A DNA stretch of 64,000 bases, taken from contig NZ_CP069812.1 in assembly GCF_016894385.1 (NCBI RefSeq), positions 2,604,001 to 2,668,000 of the forward strand, given 5' to 3'. The position numbers and the translations under genes are program-made. The DNA is from Cupriavidus oxalaticus. Its GTDB lineage: Bacteria; Pseudomonadota; Gammaproteobacteria; Burkholderiales; Burkholderiaceae. The notes under the pieces are model-generated. The model was not told the origin of the DNA. It saw only the letters and a program-made list of their open reading frames with translations, and made no database searches. Of the stretch, positions 13,829 to 18,146 are shown one piece after another (position 1 is the stretch's first letter; the number at the start of each line of letters is the position of its first letter).

Positions 13829-14150
13829 TCAGGCGCTGCCCACCAGCTTGAGCCCGGCAATGCCGCACACGATCAGCGCGATGCAGCCGATGCGCGCCGC
13901 GGTCGCGGGCTCATTGAAGAGTATGATGCCGAGGATCGCGGTGCCGACCGCGCCGATCCCGGTCCACACCGCGTAGCCGGTTCCCACCGGAATGTGACGC
14001 AGCGCCAGTGCCAGCAGGGATCACACTGATGGCCATGCCGGCCAGCGTGATGACGCTCGGCACCAGGCGCGTGAACCCGTCGGTGTATTTGAGCCCGATT
14101 GCCCACACCACCTCGAACAGCCCTGCCAGGGCCAGCAGTGTCCATGCCAT
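13829..14150 (-). pseudogene. gdx: Frameshifted guanidinium exporter (Gdx/SugE, SMR family)
   Basis: The frame from ATG 14150 reads [20 protein letters not shown]...[10 protein letters not shown] and is then lost. One base along, the sequence continues as [20 protein letters not shown] and ends ...[12 protein letters not shown] with a stop at 13829-13831. Removing one base from the GGG run at 14017-14019 (CCC on the coding strand) restores a continuous protein of about 106 residues very similar to SugE/Gdx, with the conserved Glu in LFEVVW. Gdx exports guanidinium in exchange for protons. It is either a recent pseudogene or a sequencing error in a short homopolymer. No guanidine riboswitch is visible upstream. 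Confidence 0.88.
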
Positions 14151-14206
14151 ACCGAAATTTCCCGTTGCAGCGTACCGTGCGCAACGATAGCGGAGAACCC
14201 GCCACC

Positions 14207-14446
14207 TTGCAGCGCGTTGCCCTGGCGTTGGCAGCCGCGTTGGCAGCCGCGTTGGCTACCCTTCCGCTGGGCGGTTGCATGGTGATGGCCGTGGGTAGTG
14301 CCGCGGTCTCGACCGTGGCAACCGTTGGTTCCGCCGCGGTCAGCGTGGCCTCGACCGCGGTCGGCACCACCTATGACATCACCGCTGCCGGCGTAAAAGC
14401 GGTAGCCGGCAGCGACGATCCGCCGCCGGCGCAGGAAGCGCCGTAA
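14207..14446 (+). CDS. Small predicted lipoprotein
   Basis: About 79 residues. From a TTG at 14207 (GGAGAA about nine bases upstream) the protein starts [20 protein letters not shown] and continues with the lipobox LGGC, then a low-complexity Ala/Val/Ser/Thr-rich tail ([19 protein letters not shown]) ending in Pro-rich QEAP. An in-frame ATG at 14144 would make a longer, less signal-like N-terminus and would overlap the divergent gdx start. Likely anchored to the outer membrane. Function unknown. Confidence 0.65.
14225..14256 (+). repeat. 12-bp tandem repeat within the lipoprotein signal peptide
   Basis: The unit GCGTTGGCAGCC is present 2.7 times and encodes ALAA repeats in the hydrophobic core of the signal. 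Copy-number change would keep the frame and alter signal length by four residues. Confidence 0.75.
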
Positions 14447-14466
14447 GCGCGATCAGCCTCTCGCGG

Positions 14467-15678
14467 TCAGCCTTGCTCGCCCAGGCCGCGCAGCAGGTCG
14501 GCCTTCAGGTCCTCGACCGATTCCAGTCCCACCGCCAGCCGGATCAGCCCTTCGCCCACGCCCGCCGCCGCCTTGGCCTCCGGACTCACGCGCGCATGCG
14601 TGGTGGTGTACGGGTGCGTGATGGTGGTGCGGGTATCGCCCAGGTTGCCGGTGATCGAGCACAGGCGCGTGTTGTCGATCACGCGCCAGGCGTTGGCGCG
14701 CTGCTGCTCGGGCGTGGCGCCCTTCAGCTCGAACGACACGATCGCGCCGCCGCCGCTCTGCTGCCGCATGGCAATCTCGTGCTGCGGGTGCGACTTCAGC
14801 GCCGGATGGAACACGCGCGCCACGGCCGGGTGCGACTCCAGGAACTGCGCCAGCGCCAGCGCGCTGGACGAATGGCGCTCCATGCGGATCGCCAGCGTCT
14901 CCATGCCCTTGAGCAGCACCCAGGCGTTGAACGCCGACAGCGTCGGGCCGGCGGTGCGCACGAACGGGAACACCTTGCCCATGATGAAATCGTGCGAGCC
15001 CAGCACCGCGCCGCCCAGCACGCGGCCCTGGCCGTCGATATGCTTGGTGGCGGAGTGCACCACGATGTCGGCGCCGAACTTCATCGGCTGCTGCAGCGCG
15101 GGCGAGCAGAAGCAGTTGTCGACCACCAGCAGCGCATTGGCGTTATGGGCGATGTCCGCCACGGCCGCGATGTCAGCCACTTCGGTCAGCGGATTCGACG
15201 GCGTCTCCAGGAAGAACAGCTTCGTGTTCGGCCGCACTGCCGCACGCCACGCCTCGAGGTCGGTCGGATCGACAAAGGTCGTCTCCACGCCGAACTTGCC
15301 GAAGATATTGCTGAACAGCGTCATGGTCGAGCCGAAGATCGCGCGCGAGCTGACCAGGTGGTCGCCCGCCTGCATCGACGACAGCACCACCGACAGGATC
15401 GCGCTCATGCCCGACGCCGTGGCCATGCAGGCCTGCGCCCCTTCCAGCGCGGCCAGCCGCGACTGGAACATCGACACGGTCGGGTTGGTGAAGCGCGAAT
15501 AGGTGAAGCCCTCTTCCGAGTTGGCGAAGCGTTCGGCGGCCTCGGCGGCGCTGTTGAAGCAGAAGCTCGAGGTCAGGTACATGGCCTCGGAATGCTCCAT
15601 GAACTCGCTGCGCAGCGTGCCGGCGCGCACGCCAAGGGTATCGATGCCGAGCGATTCAGGATTGAGCGGTTCGTTCAT
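14467..15678 (-). CDS. metZ: O-succinylhomoserine sulfhydrylase
   Basis: A 403-residue PLP enzyme of the Cys/Met metabolism family, forming homocysteine from O-succinylhomoserine and sulfide. The PLP lysine lies in VVHSATKHIDGQGRVLGGAV, and ETPSNPLTEVADI and the N-terminal Tyr motif (GFTYSRFTNPT) are present. The ATG at 15678 begins the conserved part MNEPLNPESLGIDTLGVRAG. The frame stays open upstream to 15867 through a terminator hairpin, but that stretch does not look like the family. The leader has its own promoter, a SAM-II riboswitch and a terminator, so methionine supply should control expression. purF lies upstream. Confidence 0.94.
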   Translation of the reverse strand: MNEPLNPESLGIDTLGVRAGTLRSEFMEHSEAMYLTSSFCFNSAAEAAERFANSEEGFTYSRFTNPTVSMFQSRLAALEGAQACMATASGMSAILSVVLSSMQAGDHLVSSRAIFGSTMTLFSNIFGKFGVETTFVDPTDLEAWRAAVRPNTKLFFLETPSNPLTEVADIAAVADIAHNANALLVVDNCFCSPALQQPMKFGADIVVHSATKHIDGQGRVLGGAVLGSHDFIMGKVFPFVRTAGPTLSAFNAWVLLKGMETLAIRMERHSSSALALAQFLESHPAVARVFHPALKSHPQHEIAMRQQSGGGAIVSFELKGATPEQQRANAWRVIDNTRLCSITGNLGDTRTTITHPYTTTHARVSPEAKAAAGVGEGLIRLAVGLESVEDLKADLLRGLGEQG

Positions 15679-15890
15679 GCTGGTGGCGCGGTCGTACCCG
15701 CGCGAATGCAATGGTTGTGGCCTGCCGCGGCAAGGCGGCGGGCCATGAAAAAAGCCCGTGCGATCGGATGGTCGGATCGACGGGCTTGCTGTGCTGCGGC
15801 GGCCTTCGGCAGGCTGTGGCGATTGGCGGGCCAGTTGCGCAGGGCTGTGCGCAGGCACTGTGCGCATCGGCGAATCTTGCTGGCCACCAT
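15675..15890 (-). CDS. Possible leader ORF coupled to metZ
   Basis: An open frame of 71 codons starts at ATG 15890, directly at the 3' edge of the SAM-II aptamer, and ends in TGA at 15677-15675, overlapping the metZ ATG (ATGA). The peptide (MVASKIRRCAQCLRTALRNW at its start) matches nothing I know. The metZ frame is open over much of the same region too, so in this GC-rich DNA the openness is weak evidence. Its value would be mechanistic: ribosomes on it would cross the terminator at 15748-15787 and arrive at metZ. Confidence 0.3.
   Translation of the reverse strand: MVASKIRRCAQCLRTALRNWPANRHSLPKAAAAQQARRSDHPIARAFFMARRLAAAGHNHCIRAGTTAPPA
15748..15787 (-). terminator. Intrinsic terminator inside the metZ leader (attenuator)
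   Basis: On the minus strand AAGCCCGT pairs with ACGGGCTT (8 bp) and CGATC with GATCG (5 bp), closing a nine-base loop, followed by TTTTTT. It lies about 70 bases before the metZ ATG and about 100 bases after the riboswitch, so it can stop transcription before metZ. It may act as the expression platform. Confidence 0.88.
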
Positions 15891-15949
15891 CTCTTTAGCT
15901 GTTTCGGGCTGGACCCGCGTCCGCAAGCTGACTGTCAAATCGACGCCCG
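15889..15949 (-). promoter_or_regulatory. SAM-II (SAM-alpha, metA) riboswitch upstream of metZ
   Basis: On the minus strand P1 is GCGTC (15946-15942) with GACGC (15921-15917). The loop carries the class-defining GATTTG next to the 5' strand and GCTTGC before the 3' strand, and the downstream pseudoknot strand AGCTAAAG is at 15900-15893. A small GGG/CCC hairpin sits in the linker. These conserved blocks, in this order and spacing, match SAM-II. SAM binding should lower metZ expression, fitting the product's place before methionine. The downstream switch here appears to include a terminator as well as the initiation region just after the pseudoknot. Confidence 0.87.
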
Positions 15950-15952
15950 GCC

Positions 15953-15981
15953 ATGTTACGGCCGGGCTTCGCATCCGTCAA
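15953..15981 (-). promoter_or_regulatory. Promoter of the metZ riboswitch transcript
   Basis: TTGACG (15981-15976), a 17-bp spacer, then TAACAT (15958-15953). The predicted start, near 15946, falls at the first base of the riboswitch P1. The -10 box lies in the loop of a perfect inverted repeat, GCCCGGCC/GGCCGGGC (15945-15967), which may also end the purF transcript. Confidence 0.72.
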
Positions 15982-16014
15982 CGAACGGACATGCACGGGG
16001 GGACGGCGTGCGGC

Positions 16015-17544
16015 TTACTCGTTGTTGCCGGAACGCTGCAGGTGCAGTGCCGAGCGCTCGGTGTCGCCGGCGGTGCCGTCGCGGTCGGCCTGGCTGCGCG
16101 CGGTCTCCAGGCGGTCCAGGTAGGCCTCGTCGATATCGCCGGTGACGTAGCGGCCATCGAAGCACGAGGCATCGAAGTCCTTCAGCGCCGGGTTGATGTC
16201 GCGCACCGCCTGCTTCATCGCTTCCACGTCCTGGTACACAAGCTGGTCCGCGCCGATGATCTGGGCGATCTCTTCGTGCGTGCGGCCGTGCGCCACCAGT
16301 TCGCTGCGGGTCGGCATGTCGATGCCGTACACGTTGGGGTACTTCACCGGCGGCGCGGCCGAGGCGAAGATCACCTTGTTGGCGCCGGCGTCGCGCGCCA
16401 TCTGCACGATCTCGAACGAGGTGGTGCCGCGCACGATCGAGTCATCGACGATCAGCACGTTCTTGCCCTTGAACTCCACGCCCATGGCATTGAGCTTCTG
16501 GCGCACCGACTTCTTGCGCACCGCCTGGCCCGGCATGATGAAGGTGCGGCCGACATAGCGGTTCTTGAAGAAGCCTTCGCGGTAGTGGACGCCCAGGCGG
16601 TTGGCCACCTGCATCGCGGCCGGACGGCTGGAGTCGGGAATCGGCATCACCACGTCGATGTCGCCGGCCGACACTTCCTGGCGGATCTTTTCGGCCAGGT
16701 AGTCGCCCATGCGCAGGCGCGCGTCGTAGACGGGCACGCCGTCGATGCACGAATCCGGGCGGGCCAGGTAGACGTACTCGAAGATGCACGGCGTCAGCAC
16801 CGGATTGTCGGCGCATTGCTTGCTGTAGAGCTTGCCGTCCAGGTCGATGAAGATCGCTTCGCCCGCCGCCACGTCGCGCTCGAACTTGTAGCCGATGCCT
16901 TCCAGCGCCACGGACTCGGAGGCAACCATCCATTCCTTGCCCGTGGGCGTCTCGACGCTGCCCAGGCACAGCGGGCGGATGCCGAACGGATCGCGCACCG
17001 CCAGCATGCCGTAGCCGGCGATCTGCGCCGCGATGGCGTACGAGCCGCGCACGCGGCGGTGCATGCCCGCAACCGCCTTGAAGATCATTTCCGGATCGAG
17101 CGCCATGCCGTTGCTGGCGCGCTGCAGCTCGTCGGCCAGCACGTTCAGCAGCACTTCGGTATCCGAATGCGTGTTGATGTGGCGGCGGTCGCGGCGGAAC
17201 ATTTCCTCGCGCAGCTGCTGCCAGTTGGTCAGGTTGCCGTTATGCGCCAGGATGATGCCGTACGGGGCATTGACGTAGAACGGCTGCGCCTCTTCCTCGC
17301 TCGAGGCCGAGCCGGCGGTCGGGTAGCGCACCTGGCCGATGCCCGCGGTGCCCGGCAGGCCGCGCATGTTGCGGGTACGGAAGACGTCGCGCACCAGGCC
17401 GTTGGCCTTGTACATGTGGAAAGTACTGCCGTTGGCGGTGGCGATGCCGGCAGCATCCTGTCCGCGGTGTTGCAACAACAGCAGGCTGTCGTAAATCAGT
17501 TGGTTGACAGGCGTGGCTGAAACCACACCGACGATACCGCACAT
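16015..17544 (-). CDS. purF: Amidophosphoribosyltransferase
   Basis: Catalyses the first committed step of purine synthesis, PRPP plus glutamine to phosphoribosylamine. The 509 residues begin MCGIVGVVS, with Cys2 as the glutaminase nucleophile, so ATG 17544 (preceded by GGGAG) is the right start. The glutaminase half has NGNLTN and the transferase half the PRPP loop [14 protein letters not shown]. cvpA lies upstream on the same strand, as in many proteobacteria. The final residues before the stop are variable. PurR-type control cannot be judged. Confidence 0.97.
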
Positions 17545-17586
17545 GCCAAGCTCCCAGGAAAGGCTTTGAATCAGGGGGCGCAGCCT

Positions 17587-17647
17587 GGTCCGGCTATCCT
17601 TCCGGACCACAAGGCCTGCGTACTACTGGCCGGGCACCATGCCCGGC
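17587..17647 (-). terminator. Two stem-loops in the cvpA-purF gap
   Basis: GGTCCGG/CCGGACC (17587-17608) and GCCGGGC/GCCCGGC (17629-17647) are perfect 7-bp stems between cvpA and purF. Neither has a T-run, so they are more likely pause, processing or attenuation structures than strong terminators. The second resembles the stem-loop after purF (15945-15967). Confidence 0.4.
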
Positions 17648-17648
17648 T

Positions 17649-18146
17649 TCATGTCTTGACGTATTTCGCCAGCTCCGGCGGCAGCCATGGCTTCACCGAT
17701 TCCATGGCCTGCATCACATACGGGCGGCTCACCGCATCGCGCCAGAACGGTTCTTCCGGCAATTTCGTCAGGCTGGCGAGGGTCACCATCACCATTACCA
17801 GCAGCGCGCCGCGCAGCAATCCGAACACCAGCCCGAGCCCGCGGTCCGCCGGCTTGAGGCCCGTGCTCTCCAGCAACTGCCCGACCACCATGCCGGCCAG
17901 CGACGCCCCGAGCACGGTGCCGATCAGCAGCACCACGAAACCCAGCGCGTGGCGGGCCAGCTCGCCGCCGGGCAGCGACTCGGGCATCCAGCCCGCCGCC
18001 ACCGCGCCGTAGCGGAACGCAACCCAGAACGCCACCACCCAGCCGATCAGCGACAGCACCTCGCGCACCAGGCCGCGCAGCACGCCCAGCGCGCCCGAGG
18101 CCAGCAGGATGAAGACCACGGCGTAGTCGAAGAAAGTCGGCTGCAT
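17649..18146 (-). CDS. cvpA: CvpA family membrane protein
   Basis: A 165-residue inner-membrane protein with four predicted helices, e.g. FDYAVVFILLASGALGVLRG and FVVLLIGTVLGASLAGMVVG, matching CvpA (needed for colicin V production in E. coli and linked to envelope stress). It sits between a SPOR-domain gene and purF, the conserved order. Expression is probably shared with purF. The molecular role is still poorly defined in the family. Confidence 0.93.
   Translation of the reverse strand: MQPTFFDYAVVFILLASGALGVLRGLVREVLSLIGWVVAFWVAFRYGAVAAGWMPESLPGGELARHALGFVVLLIGTVLGASLAGMVVGQLLESTGLKPADRGLGLVFGLLRGALLVMVMVTLASLTKLPEEPFWRDAVSRPYVMQAMESVKPWLPPELAKYVKT

Follow-up and report, generated by a model that had tools for sequence, protein, structure and literature searches.

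The leader of metZ in a 64,000-nucleotide stretch of the Cupriavidus oxalaticus genome (the window, C2:2604001-2668000 of a two-contig genome of 6.69 Mb) appears to be a SAM-II-type riboswitch that controls the gene by transcription attenuation, a reading to which a probability of about 0.8 is assigned. At the level of sequence, the class of the aptamer (by homology), the intrinsic terminator, the joint conservation of those two elements and the identity of the gene are established, and the sign of control is presumably one in which S-adenosylmethionine (SAM) turns metZ off. The evidence points to a SAM-II attenuator overlooked by Rfam's standard model. The MetZ protein of this genome is at most 99% identical to MetZ of named Cupriavidus strains. 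On the minus strand, to which all features described below belong unless stated otherwise, the locus runs from purF through a sigma-70-like promoter, the aptamer (placed at the expected start site) and an intrinsic terminator to metZ, and every coordinate given in an earlier, sequence-only reading of this DNA was found to hold.

Aptamer, terminator and promoter of the metZ leader

The proposal that the leader carries a SAM-II-type aptamer received opposite answers from two models. The Rfam model SAM_alpha (RF00521) scored 14.2 bits in the window, where it aligned to P1, GATTTGAC and GCTTGC, against a cut-off of 36, and a search of the whole genome with that model returned no match, control genomes being silent too. 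As the sole test of membership, Rfam would have led to a false negative, and for this reason a second model was made from relatives. This model, R1, was derived from 46 of 57 'class loci', drawn from the same class as the window genome and from other families (L008 and L009 belong to the same order), so that all of its members lie outside the window's family; longer elements, duplicates and the loci L009, L114, L115, L118 and L129 were left out. The class is taken here to be the Gammaproteobacteria of GTDB, which takes in the beta-proteobacteria, and the class loci are for that reason not called gamma. Model R1 matched 15890..15948 with 37.7 bits (E 5e-9), the second-best match in the window having E 0.47, and that aptamer was also its top match across the whole genome. 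On 28 chosen loci the aptamer was recovered in 23/23 carriers, three of which (L054, L172 and L173) were matched in P1 and the loop part only; the best match among the five loci without a metZ aptamer had E 0.93. Judged by the E value of R1, the aptamer is more than a chance resemblance, and by homology it is a member of the SAM-II class, for which SAM would be the ligand.

The individual elements of that class can be followed along the window. The two strands of P1, GCGTC (15942..15946) and GACGC (15917..15921), were identified from sequence and fold and form 5/5 pairs, closing a loop with GAUUUG, the L1 core (15936..15941), in agreement with the SAM_alpha consensus. GCTTGC (15923..15928, placed by sequence and by the SAM_alpha alignment) and GCTAAAG (15893..15899, placed by sequence and by the class-locus consensus) occupy the places of their counterparts in the SAM-II consensus, and are taken to be the 5' and 3' strands of the P2 pseudoknot, roles that are assumed from the structure of SAM-II. 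At the position of the A-rich L3, the fold instead shows a small hairpin (15906..15916), followed by GAAAC. That hairpin, which the 46 class loci lack in their consensus, sets the Burkholderiaceae metZ form apart, and it is plausibly the reason that the Rfam model misses this leader. Loop length varies within the SAM-II class, and PMC2864571 lists a family, RF01726, under the name 'SAM-II long loops'.

Since earlier P1 counts had been made on loci already filtered for P1, and were therefore partly circular, the helix was counted again without that filter. The 178 raw pattern matches in the fetched loci included 146 that are followed on their own strand by metZ or metX, which reduced to 108 distinct aptamers; 105 of these pair at 5/5 P1 positions, and pair 2 covaries, being TA in 55 and CG in 53. 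The P2 strands were fixed by the search pattern, and no covariation is therefore claimed for them. The pattern of three core words occurred in 144/274 class genomes and 88/150 family genomes, tallies that include chance matches.

Several observations weigh against the assignment of this aptamer to SAM-II. The score of SAM_alpha falls below its cut-off in the window and in 20/20 Burkholderiaceae loci scanned (the cut-off, passed by 7/20 class loci, is a rule for detection and says nothing about the RNA itself); a hairpin stands where SAM-II has its A-rich L3; and 159/200 shuffles of 15946-15890 fold as well as the native sequence, in a calculation confined to plain, pseudoknot-free secondary structure.

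The intrinsic terminator with its T6 tract (15748..15787), described in the sequence-only reading, is real and more than chance. For the stretch 15789-15748 the folding energy is -20.6 kcal/mol (z -5.63), which 0/200 shuffles equalled; a simple terminator scan gave no report of the 15787-15748 hairpin. Its conservation in relatives, which that reading had set as a check, was then scored as a hairpin and T-tract of -10 kcal/mol or better downstream of the aptamer. Terminators of this description were found in 31/31 Cupriavidus metZ leaders (2.0 expected from shuffles), 46/47 other Burkholderiaceae metZ leaders (2.7 expected), 7/8 other Burkholderiaceae leaders (0.0 expected) and 40/57 class loci (4.7 expected), as well as in 3/5 metX-type leaders from Cupriavidus and one other genus. 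Because the Cupriavidus leaders are related to one another, their number overstates their independence. Against this conservation stand 21/148 loci in which no terminator was found; the class loci account for 17 of these (17/57).

Within the genus itself, aptamer and terminator occur, or are missing, as a pair. Sixty same-genus genomes were matched and 49 inspected, of which 37 carry the aptamer at metZ and 12 do not; in the larger set formed by those 37 leaders, the terminator word is present in 36. Among 40 named Cupriavidus-type loci, a set that overlaps the 37 leaders in species, the terminator accompanies 19/20 of those with the aptamer and 0/20 of those without it, where three C. basilensis-type loci, with the aptamer more than 300 nucleotides upstream and the terminator present, are counted as aptamer-bearing. 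In four loci (L213, L221, L223 and L228, from Cupriavidus pauculus, campinensis, respiraculi and agavae), neither aptamer nor terminator was found upstream of metZ, which there begins shortly after the apparent end of purF.

The promoter proposed earlier, TTGACG-17-TAACAT, stands at its original coordinates. Its -35 hexamer (15976..15981) retains TTGAC in 27/27 distinct same-genus upstream stretches, and its -10 hexamer (15953..15958) is kept in 26/27; the promoter scan reported one sigma-70-like site within 14000-18000, against a mean of 0.4 in shuffles. From the position of the -10 hexamer, transcription would be expected to start near 15946, in keeping with the earlier placement of the start at the first base of the aptamer. 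A perfect dyad, GCCCGGCC-N7-GGCCGGGC, spans the -10 box at 15945-15967; it is the sole exact copy in the genome, is exact in 21 of the same 27 stretches, and is possibly an operator.

The gene downstream, which the sequence-only reading had correctly named as the controlled one, is metZ (14467..15678), encoding O-succinylhomoserine sulfhydrylase by its match to NF006003 (721.1 bits, cut-off 522). No clear Shine-Dalgarno sequence precedes it in the window sequence. The gene upstream of the leader, purF, was identified by protein family search and has its stop at 16017-16015.

Proposed transfer of the signal to the terminator and competing explanations

In the proposed mechanism, the RNA would start at the aptamer. 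Binding of SAM would close P1 together with the pseudoknot P2 (GCUUGC paired to GCUAAAG), the downstream terminator would fold, and polymerase would stop after approximately 199 nucleotides (15946-15748), leaving metZ off. Without SAM, the strands of the aptamer would be free to pair with the 5' arm and loop of the terminator, which would then be disfavoured, so that transcription would read through into metZ. This antitermination by freed aptamer strands, that is, the transfer of the message, is the weakest step of the mechanism, and on the sequence evidence the chances that it operates in this manner are about even.

Several results argue for such pairing. A full 7-nucleotide complement of GCTAAAG lies within 60 nucleotides in 30/57 class loci, against 9.1 expected, and is often part of the terminator's 5' arm. 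In a folding test, leaders were cut at the terminator loop, and the upstream pairing of the 5' arm was compared with the aptamer left free or locked. In the 31 Cupriavidus leaders this pairing had a mean probability of 0.73, which fell to 0.28 when the aptamer was locked; at two-decimal precision, the whole of the 0.73 involved the aptamer portion of the leader; the corresponding values (free and locked) were 0.70 and 0.31 in 38 class loci, and 0.59 and 0.36 in 45 other Burkholderiaceae metZ leaders. The complement of GCTTGC, GCAAGC, is found ahead of the terminator stem in 27/31 rows (in the window at 15784..15789, its first two bases outside the stem), and may be its antiterminator partner; moreover, the 5' half of the terminator loop looks steadier than the 3' half. 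Both of these features would fit a pairing with the aptamer.

Other results point the opposite way. The complement of GCTAAAG occurs in 0/31 Cupriavidus and 1/47 other Burkholderiaceae metZ leaders, and the folding test of cut leaders lacked a shuffle control. For the Cupriavidus duplexes, energies gave a median p of 0.04 when the aptamer was shuffled but 0.225 when the arm was shuffled, and in the other Burkholderiaceae metZ leaders the duplex of aptamer and arm gave no signal over shuffles (mean z -0.5 and -0.35). The folding and duplex tests furthermore favour different strands of the aptamer, P1-L1 with the GCTT part in the one and GCGGACGCGGGT in the other.

The statistical weakness of this pairing in Burkholderiaceae lends some weight to a different explanation, namely that the attenuator is fixed and that SAM acts elsewhere, for example on RNA stability, or on translation through a distant Shine-Dalgarno sequence at the edge of the aptamer. 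Action of this kind has been reported for Sinorhizobium meliloti metA, for which the available portion of PMC9373788 describes a SAM-II with a terminator, no predictable SAM-driven antiterminator, and control of translation at a distance; the lack of a clear Shine-Dalgarno sequence directly ahead of metZ in the window would suit it as well. Such an arrangement is harder to reconcile with the shared presence and shared absence of aptamer and terminator in Cupriavidus, and with the excess of close complements to an aptamer strand in the class loci, and it is considered unlikely, at somewhat better than one chance in five.

A further explanation, put forward in the sequence-only reading, holds that SAM blocks translation of a leader frame, and that transcription ends ahead of metZ once no ribosomes pass over the hairpin. 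The frame in question (15675..15890) does exist: it opens with an ATG at 15890-15888, runs for 71 codons, and ends with a TGA at 15677-15675 in an ATGA overlap with metZ. Its conservation is poor. Among the 37 Cupriavidus leaders the ATG adjoins the aptamer in 21, a point in favour of this explanation, and is absent from 16; from that ATG the overlap is reached in 5, the frame ends at codon 25 in 11 (25-37 nucleotides short of the terminator), and in 5 it is out of step or runs into metZ. The 71-codon frame is present in C. necator A5-1, and stops at 25 codons in C. necator SHC 2-3 and UYPR2.512 and in C. neocaledonicus. In C. alkaliphilus its place is taken by an out-of-step frame of 73 codons, and no ATG stands at this position in C. 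pinatubonensis, C. numazuensis, C. laharis or C. yeoncheonensis. The ATGA overlap itself occurs in 37/37 leaders whatever the frame, because the second codon of metZ begins with A.

Nor does the openness of the frame distinguish it from chance. When its 70 codons were put through 5000 dinucleotide shuffles, 54.9% contained no stop, such a frame being cheap because the DNA is GC-rich. Frames crossing the terminator were found in 15/40 class loci outside the family (12.4 expected from shuffles), 11/46 other Burkholderiaceae metZ leaders (8.8 expected) and 3/7 other Burkholderiaceae leaders (4.0 expected), without clear excess; in Cupriavidus the count was 16/31 (9.1 expected), in a related set of which most share one common ATG. 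In the window the ATG directly follows AAAGAG, the spacing for a Shine-Dalgarno sequence being absent, and a search of NCBIfam with the 71-codon product gave no family. Since the terminator is conserved with the aptamer and the frame is not, a plain transcription attenuator is supported and the linked platform of leader frame and terminator that had been suggested is not. As a coding or coupling device the leader frame was accordingly rejected, and in the window it looks accidental.

An exception to that rejection is another Burkholderiaceae genus, in which nine loci (L076-L079, L081, L082, L084, L103 and L104) carry GAGG and then, nine bases on, an ATG at the edge of the aptamer; in 9/9 of those fetched, the resulting frames differ in length and all cross the terminator. 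This layout resembles that of S. meliloti metA, where, according to the accessible part of PMC9373788, the terminator lies between two in-frame AUGs, and it weighs against plain attenuation to the extent that translational coupling is conceivable in that genus. For the window, the dependence of metZ on a translated leader frame is given roughly one chance in ten.

Earlier descriptions of the element and its filing as RF02424

That the plus strand here gives rise to an antisense small RNA, as the Rfam entry RF02424 would imply, is a very remote possibility: the family does match the plus strand of the window (15749-15980, 48.5 bits, under a cut-off of 70) and exceeds its cut-off in 9/20 Burkholderiaceae loci, on the strand opposite metZ, but the T-tract, the promoter and the SAM-II core all lie on the metZ strand, a reading as RF02424 places the terminator hairpin at the 5' end, and PMC3521395, in the part available, itself proposed a cis-acting methionine element. 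The RF02424 consensus corresponds to the reverse complement of aptamer and terminator, and its opposite-strand model is likely to represent a strand error in the family.

The family and the small RNA names attached to it (Bp2_287, also Bp2_Cand287_SIPHT, BTH_s31 and RIT77) denote the same type of locus, an aptamer and terminator upstream of metZ; the difference is that it has been filed as a small RNA, with the Rfam model on the other strand. In the text available from PMC10987360, RIT77, BTH_s31 and Bp2_287 are equated, and RIT77 is 135 nucleotides long by its coordinates and expressed in B. cenocepacia, whereas BTH_s31 is given as 143 nucleotides in the available text of PMC4035088; the same portion of PMC3521395 reports that in most genomes Bp2_Cand287 precedes methionine genes. 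The distance from P1 to the T-tract is 137-146 nucleotides in 14 loci of one genus, close to these lengths, and the small RNAs Bp2_287, BTH_s31 and RIT77 are therefore plausibly the terminated metZ leader. Both the family and these names are thus open to correction. No description of RF02424 as a SAM-II was found in searches of the open-access literature, though one may exist.

The leader resembles SAM-II (RF00521) in carrying P1, GATTTG, GCTTGC and GCTAAAG in the same order, with a terminator and a methionine gene downstream, and departs from it in its L3 and in the low score noted above. Its general kind has been published. Beta-proteobacterial SAM-II with terminators were described in PMC2258182, in which a terminator lies downstream of many SAM-II, and the excerpted text of PMC2704228 gives the class as commonest in alpha-, beta- and gamma-proteobacteria. 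Leyn et al. 2014 (PMC4239095, available in part) described a beta-proteobacterial metXZ element with a pseudoknot of regions 1-4 and 2-6, a terminator, a proposed antiterminator, and metX or metZ as target; with six conserved regions and two alternative folds, that element agrees with the window as far as its description in the text goes, and differs, so far as that portion of the paper goes, in that metX and metZ of the window genome each have a copy. Regulatory elements in the 5' untranslated regions of B. thailandensis metX, metZ and metK are stated as confirmed, as unpublished data, in the accessible text of PMC8814607. Among tested systems, the nearest in which a SAM-II is followed by an AUG and a terminator is again S. 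meliloti metA, which, in the available portion of PMC9373788, shares with the window the aptamer, the AUG at its edge, the terminator and a second start, and differs in that its AUG2 is in frame with AUG1 and its distant Shine-Dalgarno sequence was tested, whereas the frame in the window is not conserved. The switch in the window therefore adds to a kind already published, and its L3 hairpin is what distinguishes it.

Related leaders at metX and metK

The metZ leader would appear to be one of three leaders of SAM-II architecture in this genome. When model R1 was applied to the genome, a second copy was located upstream of metX (C2:154677-154770; L061 1154-1247) with E 2e-5. A terminator of its own accompanies this leader, whose L3 contains a long hairpin, and the gene was named by TIGR01392 at 462.5 bits, below the cut-off of 500. 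A third, weak match (20.2 bits, E 0.056) lies upstream of metK (C2:173918-173990; L278 1501-1573), the gene for SAM synthetase, identified by TIGR01034 at 601 bits against a cut-off of 309.4.

The metK leader retains P1, CUUGC and GCUAAAG, and its binding loop is rebuilt, with GAGUUAACUGACAA replacing GAUUUG...CAG. The stretch has a DNA match in 40/40 Cupriavidus genomes, and its 31-nucleotide core is identical in 30/30 fetched Cupriavidus loci that were found by DNA similarity. Searched by pattern, the element occurs in 41/150 family genomes and in 4/25 genera (three besides Cupriavidus), and in 1/369 class genomes, namely the window genome itself; a MetK word follows all 49 distinct stretches examined. 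Across 39 distinct elements the outer pairs of P1 covary (pair 6 is AT in 28 and TA in 11) and the L3 hairpin varies in sequence. The core is identical in 39/39, but 16/31 of its bases were fixed by the pattern for 21 stretches, so that outside Cupriavidus the search itself accounts for part of this identity. An Rfam scan of four metK-element loci gave no match above threshold, and in the open-access literature the element was not found described beyond the unpublished-data remark in the accessible text of PMC8814607, though other accounts may exist. From these sequence comparisons it is possible, if doubtful, that the metK leader represents an unannotated Burkholderiaceae riboswitch class that arose from SAM-II, with a changed ligand specificity or response. 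If it is such a re-tuned relative, then a single genome would provide a natural set for the study of ligand change in a pseudoknot aptamer. In the same genome, an ATG in frame with metK stands just past the element.

One further arrangement was observed in a class genome, at locus L129, where two SAM-II-type aptamers stand in tandem (199-243 and 292-340 in minus-strand numbering of that locus), approximately 50 nucleotides apart and with a terminator-like hairpin after the first.

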